From Kiloniellaceae bacterium (GTDB lineage: Bacteria; Pseudomonadota; Alphaproteobacteria; Kiloniellales; Kiloniellaceae), in NCBI GenBank assembly GCA_009377535.1, contig WHTV01000013.1, positions 1-64,000 of the forward strand: a DNA stretch of 64,000 nt, in the 5' to 3' direction. Under the pieces are notes generated by a model. The model made no database searches and had not been told where the DNA came from. It saw only the letters and a list, made by a program, of their open reading frames with translations. The stretch's first letter is position 1; each line of letters begins with the position of its first letter. This document shows positions 5,443 to 40,225 of this stretch, piece after piece. Both the position numbers and the translations under genes were made by a program.

Positions 5443-8079
5443 CTATGCCGTGGCCTCGGCAAGCTGCCGATGCCGCCGGCCGCGCTGCATGAATACGATG
5501 AGGGCCAGGAGCAGCAGGGCCGGAATGTACATCAGTTCCTTGGGCGGCTGGTCGACCGGTTCCTTCACCGTAACGATCTTCTGGTCGAACTCCAGCCCGG
5601 CTGCCTCGGCCGGGGTGCCGAAGGCTGCATTGTCGATCAGCACCTCATCGCCCTCGACGTAGAGCTCCAGGCCGGCCGACTGCAGACGCTCCTCGCCGCT
5701 CGCCCCTTCGCCCAGCGGCAGAAGAGCGATGAAGCTGCGCGGGTTCCCCACCGCATCCAGTCCATCCACCCGCAAGCGCAGGATCTCGCCGGCCTGCATG
5801 CGATCGGCGACCTCGGCGATCTGTGCCGGCGGCATGTCGCGGGTCGGCGGCGAGGCCAGGTCCATCCAGAATCCCGGACGGAACAGCGAAAAGGCGATGA
5901 GCAGCAGTAGGACGGTCTCGTAGGCGCGATTGCGCGCGAGGAAGAATCCCTGTGTTGCCGCTGCAAATATCAGCATGGCCACCGTCGCGACGACAAAGAC
6001 GAAGATTCCGCCGAGCCACCCCACGTTGATCAGCAGCAAGTCGGTGTTGAAGATGAAGAGGAACGGCAGCGCGGCAGTGCGCAGCGAGTAGAAGAACGCC
6101 ACGAAGCCGGTCTTGATGGGGTCGCCGCCCGACACCGCGGCGGCCGCAAAGGAGGCCAGGCCGACCGGCGGCGTCACGTCGGCCATGATGCCGAAGTAGA
6201 AGACGAATAGGTGCACGGCAATCAGCGGCACGATAAGGCCGGCGTCCTGACCGAGCTGCACGACGACCGGCGCCATCAGCGCCGAGACCACGATGTAGTT
6301 GGCCGTGGTCGGCAGGCCCATGCCGAGAATGAGGCTCAGGATCGCCGTCCAGATCAGGATCAGCATGATGTTGCCGAGGGAAAGGATTTCCACCAGTTCG
6401 GCCAGAACCAGGCCGACGCCGGTCTGCGATACCGAGCCGACGATGACCCCGGCGGTGGCCGTGGCGATACCGATGCCGATCATGTTGCGCGCACCGGTCA
6501 CCAGGCCGTCGAACAGCTCCCTCAGGCCTTGCCCGAACCAGCGGGTCAGATCGTGCTGGCCCCGGAAGAAACCGAACAGCGGGCGCTGCGTCAGCACGAT
6601 GAAGATCATGAAGGCCGTCGCCCAGAAGGCGGAGAGGCCAGGCGACATCCGCTCGACCATAAGGCACCAGATCAGGACGATGACCGGCAGGATGAAATGG
6701 ATGCCCGACTTCACCGTCGGACCCACCTTCGGCAAGGAGATGACCGGCGCGTTGGGGTCGTCCAGTTCGAGTTCGGGATAGCCTGAGCCGAAGCGGATAA
6801 GCCCGACGTAGACAACCGTCAGAAGAACCGCGACGAGCCACGGCGTGGCATCGCCCAGCCAAGGCTTCACCCAGCCGAGGCCGTAGTAGAACGCCATCGA
6901 CAGCGCCGAAAAGACCAGGAAGCCGAAGAGGACGCCGCCCGCCACCCGGATGAAGGGCTTGGGCGGTTCGGCGCGGGGCAGGCCCTGCATGTTGGCCTTC
7001 ACGGCTTCCAGGTGCACGATGTAGACCAGCGCGATATAGGAGATGAGCGCTGGAATGAAGGCGTGCTTCACCACCTCGAAATAGGAGATGCCGACGTATT
7101 CCACCATGAGGAAGGCGGCGGCGCCCATCACCGGCGGCATGATCTGGCCGTTCACCGAAGAAGCGACCTCCACCGCGCCTGCCTTCTCCGCCGACAGGCC
7201 GGTTCGCTTCATCATCGGAATGGTGAAGGTGCCGGTGGTGACGACGTTGGCGATGGAGGAGCCGGAGATCAGACCGGTCATGGCAGAGGCGACCACCGCC
7301 GCCTTGGCGGGACCGCCACGGTAGTGACCGAGCAGCGAGAAGGCGACCTTGATGAAGTAGTTGCCGGCGCCGGCCTTGTCGAGCAGGGCGCCGAACAGCA
7401 CGAAGAGGAACACGAAGCTCGTCGAGACCTCCAGCGCAGTACCGTAGACGCCGGACGTCGAGGTCCATTGGTGGTCCACCACCCCGGCCAGGGAAACACC
7501 CTTGTGGGCGATCAGGTTCGGCATGTAGGGACCGAAGAAAGTATAGATCAGGAAGAGCGATGCGATGATCGTCAGCGGTGGGCCGAGCGCGCGCCGCGTC
7601 GCCTCCAGCAGGATTACCATGCCGACGCAGGCCACCACGATGTCCTGCATGTTGGGGTTGGCGGGGCGCTGCGAGATCGAGTCGTAGAACCAGAAGAGGT
7701 AGCTGGCGCAGAAGGCACCGACCAGCGCCAGGACCCAATCCTGGACAGGTATGTGGCTGCGCGGCGAGCGCTTCAGGGCCGGATAGGCGAGGAACGCCAG
7801 GAAGATCGCGAAACCGAGATGGAGGGCGCGCGATTCGGTGTTGTTCAGGACCACCGGCAAGCCGGTGATGCCGGACACCAGGAAGGGCAGCGGCGAGGCG
7901 ATCCAGATCTGGAACAGCGACCAGGCTACGGCCACCCACAGAATGACCTGAAGAGGAAACCCTGTAGGCGAGCGGCCACCGGTATCTGTGGCAGCGACGA
8001 GATCCTGCAGTTCCTCATCGCTCAGCGGCCGCCCGGCGCCCCCTTGCCCGGCACCGCCGGTCCTCGGATCGTCAGCCAT
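5443..8079 (-). CDS. TRAP transporter fused permease (4TM/12TM), TAXI type
   Basis: This 878-residue integral membrane protein fuses the small and large TRAP permease subunits, the form that pairs with TAXI binding proteins. The first third holds the DctQ-like helices; the DctM-like part follows, with GLISGSSIANVVTTGTFTIP (about residues 280-300), VNGQIMPPVMGAAAFLMVEY, and a second set with LGMGLPTTANYIVVSALMAP and DVTPPVGLASFAAAA. After the last transport helices comes a C-terminal extension of about 190 residues, matching the DUF3394 region often found in these fusions, with a periplasmic loop and a final helix near LMYIPALLLLALIVF. It is co-oriented with the binding protein upstream and the universal stress protein downstream. 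Substrate unknown. Confidence 0.93.
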   Translation of the reverse strand: MADDPRTGGAGQGGAGRPLSDEELQDLVAATDTGGRSPTGFPLQVILWVAVAWSLFQIWIASPLPFLVSGITGLPVVLNNTESRALHLGFAIFLAFLAYPALKRSPRSHIPVQDWVLALVGAFCASYLFWFYDSISQRPANPNMQDIVVACVGMVILLEATRRALGPPLTIIASLFLIYTFFGPYMPNLIAHKGVSLAGVVDHQWTSTSGVYGTALEVSTSFVFLFVLFGALLDKAGAGNYFIKVAFSLLGHYRGGPAKAAVVASAMTGLISGSSIANVVTTGTFTIPMMKRTGLSAEKAGAVEVASSVNGQIMPPVMGAAAFLMVEYVGISYFEVVKHAFIPALISYIALVYIVHLEAVKANMQGLPRAEPPKPFIRVAGGVLFGFLVFSALSMAFYYGLGWVKPWLGDATPWLVAVLLTVVYVGLIRFGSGYPELELDDPNAPVISLPKVGPTVKSGIHFILPVIVLIWCLMVERMSPGLSAFWATAFMIFIVLTQRPLFGFFRGQHDLTRWFGQGLRELFDGLVTGARNMIGIGIATATAGVIVGSVSQTGVGLVLAELVEILSLGNIMLILIWTAILSLILGMGLPTTANYIVVSALMAPVVVQLGQDAGLIVPLIAVHLFVFYFGIMADVTPPVGLASFAAAAVSGGDPIKTGFVAFFYSLRTAALPFLFIFNTDLLLINVGWLGGIFVFVVATVAMLIFAAATQGFFLARNRAYETVLLLLIAFSLFRPGFWMDLASPPTRDMPPAQIAEVADRMQAGEILRLRVDGLDAVGNPRSFIALLPLGEGASGEERLQSAGLELYVEGDEVLIDNAAFGTPAEAAGLEFDQKIVTVKEPVDQPPKELMYIPALLLLALIVFMQRGRRHRQLAEATA

Positions 8080-8099
8080 ATCAATTCCCCCGTCTTGGT

Positions 8100-8119
8100 G
8101 GCGCCGTCACGGCGGCGCC
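8100..8119 (-). other. Small hairpin in the leader of the TRAP permease
   Basis: A 7-bp inverted repeat (8100-8106 with 8113-8119, 6-nt loop) lies about 20 bases upstream of the permease ATG on the minus strand, just before the GGGGGA ribosome-binding motif. It could modulate ribosome access or mRNA stability. It is a sequence observation only. Confidence 0.35.
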
Positions 8120-8210
8120 CCTGTCCCCCAGGAAAGCGCCTCACCGCGCTTTATCGAGGTCATCTGCGGCGCCTGATGTCGTCCTGCATGGAAGCCTCAA
8201 GGAAAGGAAG

Positions 8211-8235
8211 AGTGGGCGGGTCGAGCCCGCCCACT
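8211..8235 (-). terminator. Hairpin between TAXI binding protein and permease genes (attenuator or mRNA stabiliser)
   Basis: A perfect 10-bp GC-rich stem (8211-8220 with 8226-8235) with a 5-nt loop sits 10 bases after the binding-protein stop on the minus strand. The downstream sequence is pyrimidine-rich (CTTCCTTTCC) but not a clean T-run. In binding-protein transporter operons such hairpins commonly cause partial termination or protect the upstream mRNA, giving more binding protein than permease; that role is inferred here. Confidence 0.6.
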
Positions 8236-8245
8236 CGAACCGGAA

Positions 8246-9229
8246 TTACATCCAGCCGCGTTCCTTGTAATACCGCTCGGCACCCGGATGCAGCGGGGCA
8301 GAGAGGTTCTTAGTGATCATGTCCGCTTCCTTGAGATTGGCGAAAGCCGGATGCAGGTTCTTGAAGCGGTCGAAATTGTCGAACACCGTCTTGACCACCT
8401 GGTAGATGGTCTCTTCATCCGCCTTGGTGGAGGACACGAAGGTCGCACCGACGCCGAAGGTCTCGACATCTTCGGCAGTCCCGTCGTAGGTGCCGCCGAC
8501 CACCGTGGCCTTGGCGTAGTAGGCATTGTCGTTCACCAAGCTGTCGATCGCCGCCCCGGTCACCGGGATGATGATCGAATCGCAGGAGGTGGTGGCTTCC
8601 TTGATGGTGCCGCTGGGGTGGCCGACGGTGAAGACGATCGCGTCGATCTTGTTGTCGCAGAGGGCGGCGGCCTGCTCGGCCGACTGCAACTCGGCGGCCA
8701 GTTTGAAGTCGCTCATCTGCCAGCCGAGCTTTTCCATCACGACTTCCATGGTGCCGCGGGCGCCGGAGCCGGGATTGCCGACGTTGACGCGCTTGCCCTT
8801 CAAATCGTCGAAGGTCTTGATGCCCGAGTCCTTGCGGGCAACGACGGTGAAGGGCTCCGGATGCACCGAAAAGACAGCGCGCAGCTCCTTGTTGGCCCCT
8901 TGCGGAAACTTGTCGGGCGCGGTGCCGTTGTAGGCATGGTACTGCCAGTCGGACTGGACCACGCCCATGTCCTGCTCGCCGTTGGCGATGGCATTCAGGT
9001 TGGCCACGGAACCGCCGGTCGAGGGCGCCGTGCACTTGATGTTGTGATCAGCCTGGCCGCGGTTGACCAGCCTGCAGATCGACTGGCCGACGACGTAGTA
9101 GACGCCGGTTTGGCCGCCGGTGCCGATGGTGACGAACTTCTCCTGCGCCTGGGCCGTCGCCGCAGCCCCGGCGAGCAGAGCCGCCGCGGACAAACCGAGC
9201 AAAGTGGACTTGAAAGTAGTGGATCTCAT
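8246..9229 (-). CDS. TAXI family TRAP transporter solute-binding protein
   Basis: This 327-residue periplasmic protein has a clear signal peptide (hydrophobic GLSAAALLAGAAATAQAQ, cleavage near residue 29) and the TAXI-family opening: FVTIGTGGQTGVYYVVGQSIC around residues 32-52, then STGGSVANLNAIANGEQDMGVVQSDW. This family binds small carboxylates such as glutamate or 2-oxoglutarate in known members; the ligand here is not determined. It is the first gene of the operon, followed by a hairpin and the fused permease. A GGGAG motif about 10 bases before the ATG supports the start. Confidence 0.95.
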   Translation of the reverse strand: MRSTTFKSTLLGLSAAALLAGAAATAQAQEKFVTIGTGGQTGVYYVVGQSICRLVNRGQADHNIKCTAPSTGGSVANLNAIANGEQDMGVVQSDWQYHAYNGTAPDKFPQGANKELRAVFSVHPEPFTVVARKDSGIKTFDDLKGKRVNVGNPGSGARGTMEVVMEKLGWQMSDFKLAAELQSAEQAAALCDNKIDAIVFTVGHPSGTIKEATTSCDSIIIPVTGAAIDSLVNDNAYYAKATVVGGTYDGTAEDVETFGVGATFVSSTKADEETIYQVVKTVFDNFDRFKNLHPAFANLKEADMITKNLSAPLHPGAERYYKERGWM

Positions 9230-9635: not shown

Positions 9636-10037
9636 ATGCGCCCGCTAGGCTTAAAGTCCAGGATTTTCCGCCTTCTCGCCAGCTTCCTTGCAGCAGGGGG
9701 CCTGCTGGGTCATGGCCTCGCCATGCTGCTGGTCGCCCTGCTGGTACAGGCGCCGGCGACCGCCGAGGCCGAGCTTGCGGGCTACGGCGAGATCTGCACA
9801 GCCGCGAGCGATCCCGCCGAAGGAAACGATCCGGCCCCCGGCCACCCGCCGGGCCGCATCGACGCCTGCCCCGTCTGCACCGCTTTCGCGCAGAGCGGCC
9901 CGGTGGATCTGCCCCAGGCCTTCCAGCTGCCGGCGCGCGCGACAACAGGCACCGTCCAGCTCCCTGTGCAAGAAGCTCCGCCCGCGGCTACCGGCAGGCG
10001 GAGCGCCCTGTCGCGGGGTCCGCCGGCCCTCGCATGA
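9636..10037 (+). CDS. DUF2946-like small exported or membrane-anchored protein, copper-associated context
   Basis: This 133-residue protein has an N-terminal hydrophobic segment (about residues 12-38, LLASFLAAGG then LAMLLVALLV) and a short periplasmic part with a conserved CTA at 54, a His near 70 and a CPVC motif at 78-81. This ICTA...H...CPVC arrangement is typical of DUF2946 proteins, often found beside copper chaperones and TonB copper receptors. The putative PCuAC chaperone follows 123 bases downstream on the same strand, supporting a role in copper handling; binding itself is inferred. No strong ribosome-binding site precedes the ATG, so the start is uncertain. Confidence 0.65.
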   Translation: MRPLGLKSRIFRLLASFLAAGGLLGHGLAMLLVALLVQAPATAEAELAGYGEICTAASDPAEGNDPAPGHPPGRIDACPVCTAFAQSGPVDLPQAFQLPARATTGTVQLPVQEAPPAATGRRSALSRGPPALA

Positions 10038-10160
10038 GTTTTGCGGGCGGAGCTATCCGGCCCCGCCCGCTCGAAGGTGAACCCAAGCATCGCGAGACGA
10101 CTCTTCGCGGCGATCGCTGCCGGACGGGCGCGATGCCGCGAGCCGACAAGGAAACCTCCC

Positions 10161-10693
10161 ATGACCTCTATTCTTTCCCGCCTCTTCCTCGCCGGCGCCG
10201 CCTGGTGGCCGCCGCCGTCGCCGGCTTCAACGCGCCGAGCGCCCTTGCCCGCGATTACAAGCTCGGCGGGCTCAGCATCGCGCATCCCTGGGCCAGGGCC
10301 TCCGCCGGCCCCGCCCGCAACGGGGCGGCCTTCCTGGCGATTGAGAATGCCGGCGGCGCCGATCGTCTGATCGCGATTTCCGGCGAGGTCTGCGAACGCG
10401 CCGAGTTGCACACCCACATGATGGAGGGCGAGGTCATGAAGATGCGCCGGGTGCAATCCGTCGAGGTGCCGGCGAAGGGCAGCGCCGCCCTGCAGCCGGG
10501 CGGCTTCCACATCATGCTGGTCGGCCTGAAGCACCCGCTGCAGGAGGGGGAGCGCTTTCCCCTGACCCTCACCTTCGAGACGGCCGGCGAGATCACCGTC
10601 GAGTTCGCCGTGGAGGGCGTCGGCAGCATGGGCCCCCAGGGCGGTACGGGTCACGACACCATGGACCACGGTACGATGACGCCGGCCAACTGA
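10161..10693 (+). CDS. PCu(A)C family periplasmic copper chaperone, apparent frameshift in the signal peptide
   Basis: Copper chaperone that would deliver Cu(I) in the periplasm, for example to cytochrome oxidase. The mature domain is intact: LGGLSIAHPWARAS, ENAGGADRLIAIS, the metal region ELHTHMMEGEVMKMR and PGGFHIMLVGL, followed by a His/Met-containing tail (HDTMDHGTMTP). The natural ATG at 10161, preceded by AACCTCCC, encodes MTSILSRLFLAGAA, then leaves frame; the rest of the signal peptide (LVAAAVAGFNAPSALA) and the mature domain lie in frame 2. Inserting one C after 10202 restores a single 178-residue protein with a textbook signal peptide. Alternatively translation starts in frame 2 at ATG 10133 with an RRRR-LVAAAVAG leader. 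Sequencing error and true mutation are both possible. Confidence 0.75.
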
Positions 10694-39131: not shown

Positions 39132-40225
39132 ATGACTCGCAAACCGGAAGGCGCGTTGCGGCGCGGCTGGACCACAGGGGCCTGCGCCACAGCGGCCACC
39201 AAGGCTGCCTACACGGCGCTGCTCACCGGGCAGTTCCCGGATCCCGTCTCCATCACCCTGCCGAAGGGCGAGCAGCCGGCCTTCGCGCTGACCCGCGAAG
39301 CGCTGTCGGACGACTCGGCCAGCGCCGCCATCGTGAAGGACGCCGGCGACGACCCGGACGTCACCCATCTGGCCACCGTGCAGGTGACCCTGCGCCGCAC
39401 CGCGCCCGGCAGCGGAGTCGTCTTCAAGGCCGGCGCCGGCGTCGGCACCGTCACCAAGCCGGGGCTGCCGCTGCCGGTCGGCGAGCCGGCCATCAACCCG
39501 GTGCCGCGGCAGATGATGCGCCAGGTGGTGGCCGAGGTCGCCGCCGGGCATGGCGACGCCGGCGACGTGGAGATCGAGATCTCCGTCGATAATGGCGCGG
39601 CCCTGGCCAAGCAGACCTGGAACCCACGCCTTGGCATTCTCGGCGGCCTTTCCATCCTCGGCACCACCGGGGTGGTGGTGCCGTTCTCCTGCTCGGCCTG
39701 GATCCATTCGATTCACCGAGGCATCGACGTGGCGCGGGCCCTCGGTCTTGGCCACGCGGCCGCCTGCACTGGTTCGACCTCCGAGGCGGCCGTGCAGCGC
39801 CTCTACCACCTGCCGGAGAGCGCCCTGCTCGACATGGGCGACTTCGCCGGCGGCCTGCTGAAGTACTTGCGCCGGCACCCGCTGCCGCGCCTCACTCTGG
39901 CCGGCGGCTTCGGCAAACTCTGAAGCTGGCGGCCGGCCATCTCGATCTGCATTCGGGGCGTAGCCAGGTCGACTTCGACCTGCTGGCGGAGACCCTCGCG
40001 GGCCTCGGCGCCGCGCCGGCGCTGCTGGCCGAGGCGCGCCAGGCCAACACGGCCAAGCAGGTGCTCGACCTGGCAGCGGCGGCCGGCCTGCCGTTGGCCG
40101 ACGCCGTGGCCGCGCGAGCCCGGGCCGCCGCACTCGGCGTCCTCGACGGGGCGATCGAGGTGGAGGTCATGATTTTCGACCGTAGTGGAAATCTCGTCGG
40201 CCAGGCGCCAGGTTGGCCGTCATGA
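39132..40225 (+). pseudogene. cbiD: Cobalt-precorrin-5B (C1)-methyltransferase, interrupted by a one-base frameshift
   Basis: CbiD methylates C1 of cobalt-precorrin-5B in cobalamin synthesis. The first frame runs to TGA at 39921-39923 (263 residues) and shows GWTTGACATAATKAAYTALL, NPVPRQMMRQVV, ILGGLSILGTTGVVVP and LLDMGDFAGGLLKY. It then stops just at FGKL. The missing C-terminus lies in the neighbouring frame from 39923: KLAAGHLDLHSGRSQVD, ANTAKQVLDLAA, IFDRSGNLVGQAPGW, ending at 40225. Restoring one C in CTCTGAAG, at about 39921, gives one protein of normal length, about 364 residues. Either an assembly error or a real recent inactivation. The restored end overlaps the cobK start by four bases, as expected for a once-intact operon. 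Confidence 0.88.

Follow-up and report, generated by a model that had tools for sequence, protein, structure and literature searches.

The export leader of a PCu(A)C copper chaperone gene is divided between two reading frames in the 64,000-nucleotide stretch of DNA that we analysed (the window), whereas in 7/7 congeners it is unbroken and continuous with the domain. Judging by the sequence comparison with relatives, the gene ancestrally starts at the 10161 ATG, and the frame change is found in this genome only. We regard the case as an ordinary PCu(A)C gene whose frameshift is probably a sequence artefact, with nothing novel in it. The features on which the argument rests are the following.

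9636..10037, + strand: small DUF2946 protein, the upstream neighbour (Pfam PF11162, E 1.9e-7)
10133..10202, + strand: alternative in-frame ATG and RRRR leader, probably not native (no counterpart in relatives)
10146..10160, + strand: ribosome-binding region of the ancestral start, ACAAGGAAACCTCCC just 5' of the ATG (aligns with the ribosome site of G002 and G007)
10161..10202, + strand: ATG and first half of the leader, MTSILSRLFLAGAA, frame 1 (translation; homologous start in congeners)
10190..10205, + strand: most likely region of the one-base frame change (frames compared; codon model switch at 10202)
10203..10693, + strand: second half of the leader, LVAAAVAGFNAPSALA, and the mature PCu(A)C copper chaperone, in the other frame (PF04314 match)
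39132..40222, + strand: cbiD, split by a one-base loss at 39923/39924 (NCBIfam profile over two frames; congeners; alignment)

A copper chaperone read in two frames

PCu(A)C chaperones (PF04314) work in the periplasm, where they supply cytochrome oxidase and other enzymes with copper, and Hx10Mx21HxM is their copper-binding motif. We compared both frames of the PCuAC gene separately. The 10161 ATG is preceded by GACAAGGAAACCTCCC, with a good ribosome site (AAGGAAA), and opens a frame that translates as MTSILSRLFLAGAAWWPPPSPAST... and meets a stop before the gene ends; after MTSILSRLFLAGAA it gives WWPPPSPAST..., which is unlike a leader. One frame over, at an offset of a single base, LVAAAVAGFNAPSALARDYKLGG... 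leads into a complete PCu(A)C protein with its stop at 10693, and the frame read from 10103 (...MPRADKETSHDLYSFPPLPRRRRLVAAAVAGFNAPSALARDYKLGGLSIAHPWAR...) is open to that same stop. Congruently with the translations, a codon-usage model switched into the coding frame of the chaperone at 10202, and there are no runs of N within the 64-kb window. The original prediction, in which the 10161 ATG opens a signal-like peptide but falls out of frame, with the remaining leader and the full chaperone lying in the other frame, is thus borne out by the translations and by a PF04314 match that covers the full length of the domain.

The identification of the product as a PCuAC copper chaperone, also proposed there, agrees with the profile search, which returned an E value of 6e-38 and 129.5 bits (curated cut-off, 29.4) over the full profile (1-109). 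By hand count in the translation, the copper motif is present as H-THMMEGEVMK-M-RRVQSVEVPAKGSAALQPGGF-H-I-M. The body of the chaperone is intact, full length and without stops, and is 63% identical to that of G002. Despite low sequence identity, a DUF2946 match lies just upstream of PCuAC in 7/7 congeners, so that the pair forms a conserved neighbourhood. The gene resembles other PCu(A)C genes in its full-length domain and copper site, in the presence of both halves of the export leader and in a DUF2946 neighbour kept across the genus, and departs from its relatives in a leader spread over two frames, in this assembly alone. Elsewhere in the window (5443-9229, − strand), a TRAP transporter large subunit (DctM) with DUF3394 adjoins an NMT1-like (TAXI-type) solute-binding protein.

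Each of the seven congeners (7/7) has one PCuAC gene in which ATG, leader and domain share a single frame, as exemplified by the G002 leader, MQRFLSAAFGAALLLAGSLFAAPPVAAQEVKF. At the level of the family, the gene was present in 22 of the 23 genomes searched (this genome counted), and the carriers other than this genome show a single-frame leader with the ATG located 23-36 codons before the comparison point. In G002 and G007, the two nearest congeners, the ribosome site and the ATG align on those of 10161 or lie at most two bases off. These single-frame leaders, together with the aligned start, are what identifies 10161 as ancestral and the frame change as private. The relatives had been singled out beforehand as the place to look for the same frame and an RRRR leader; the 7 congeners and the family orthologues turned out to be single-frame throughout, and none carries an RRRR leader. 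A contig scan with the protein yielded no second sequence from the same species, only distant relatives at ≤51% identity, and the exact leader pattern had no match in viral contigs.

Origin of the one-base loss

We consider it fairly likely that the one-base loss in PCuAC arose as an error in the consensus or assembly of a fragmented draft and not in the organism. The assembly amounts to 4.43 Mb in 317 contigs and is 91% complete, and the same window holds a second split gene, cbiD, the gene for cobalt-precorrin-5B C1-methyltransferase. The NCBIfam cbiD profile NF000849 is matched at positions 7-264 by the frame 39132-39923 and at 265-361 by the piece that follows in a different frame. In 7/7 congeners cbiD runs through 367-378 codons in a single open frame; aligned with three of these genes, the sequence here lacks one base at 39923/39924. 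This shift is probably a consensus error as well; the site does not fall within a long homopolymer and hence carries no pointer to one sequencing technology. That two conserved genes 30 kb apart in a fragmented assembly each lack one base favours error over recent mutation, and since both split genes are otherwise undamaged, consensus errors fit best.

We also used a codon model to look for frame switches that lack a start codon. In this genome it detected 3 over the 557 kb scanned: 1 within the window, that of cbiD, and 2 across 493 kb outside it. G007 gave 0 over 1.2 Mb and G002 gave 1 over 387 kb, counts so low that the difference in rate between genomes is only suggestive. The scan is blind to the shift in PCuAC, where the upstream piece has just 14 codons. 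The 2 putative switches outside the window, at L099:1353 and L106:8775 (both − strand), lie on other contigs, have no start codon close by and were seen by codon usage only. Because antisense shadow frames swamped a homology-based count of frameshifts, in which G007 proteins were compared with pieces of this genome and G002, the cbiD event alone was taken from it.

Both possibilities, error and genuine change, have precedent. When the interrupted genes of M. smegmatis were resequenced, 28 of 73 proved to be sequencing errors, about 4 per Mb; most of the interrupted genes tested were not, which indicates that interruptions can be real (PMC1852416). The case described here is like those interrupted coding sequences (ICDS) of bacterial genomes in that a conserved gene, whole in relatives, is split by one base, and differs from that study, which resequenced its genes, in that the split is known from the deposited sequence (PMC1852416).

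A real and recent mutation in the strain is possible but, in our judgement, rather unlikely. It would render the 10161 peptide useless and leave the chaperone unexported, or weakly exported from 10133. The shift is present in the deposited sequence, the in-frame ATG at 10133 is followed by a leader with an AxA-type end (SALA), and genuine frameshifts are common in bacterial genomes; but the nearby loss in the conserved cbiD and the fragmentation of the assembly make error likelier, and the mature domain shows no decay. Moreover, a whole-genome search found the PCuAC family match at 10277-10600 to be the sole copy in the assembly, so that a real loss of the leader is less expected, though the assembly may lack ~9% of the genome.

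The in-frame start at 10133

A start at 10133 would encode MPRADKETSHDLYSFPPLPRRRRLVAAAVAGFNAPSALA, in a reading frame that is open from this position, and from far upstream, to the stop. The suggestion that such a start would still give a usable leader stood in part: the in-frame ATG exists and export is possible, but the leader is weaker than those of the congeners, with a best 18-residue Kyte-Doolittle mean of 0.95 in its core versus 1.64-2.53. If the shift were real, this leader could provide some export, without being the native design. That the shift is real and that the only PCu(A)C is now made from the ATG upstream, its arginine-rich leader changing the route or efficiency of export, seems to us very improbable.

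We find it equally hard to accept that the native design of this organism is the 10133 start with its RRRR leader and that the 10161 ATG is there by chance. The uninterrupted frame would suit such a design, and RRRRLVAAAV loosely resembles a charged n-region preceding a hydrophobic core. However, the RRRR leader occurs in no relative, the conserved ribosome site belongs to 10161 while none is evident before 10133, and the core is the less hydrophobic one given above. Furthermore, RRRR is what the Ala/Gly codons of the true leader (Ala-Gly-Ala-Ala) give when read one frame off, and G002 and G007 likewise contain it out of frame. Finally, a prfB-like programmed shift of the ribosome within the leader is scarcely credible: two overlapping frames do meet within a few codons, but no relative needs such a shift (frame change in 0/7 congeners), neither a slippery run nor a stop is evident at the junction, cbiD in the same window has an unrelated one-base shift and, unlike in prfB-type frameshifts, the site is not conserved among congeners.

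Consequences for annotation and copper delivery

If the loss is a consensus error, as we favour, the PCuAC gene would start at 10161, with one base missing from its signal-peptide codons in the assembly. As is predicted for its family, the protein would be exported through the Sec route, bind copper at Hx10Mx21HxM and hand it to enzymes such as cytochrome oxidase. On the deposited sequence, gene callers will probably begin PCuAC at 10133 or further upstream and thereby give it a false N-terminus, and the miscalled start may hide the export signal from annotation. Likewise, cbiD would be called broken, and an incomplete cobalamin pathway could be scored in error. If, on the other hand, the shift is real, the secretion of PCu(A)C in this organism would rest on the weak alternative leader from 10133.
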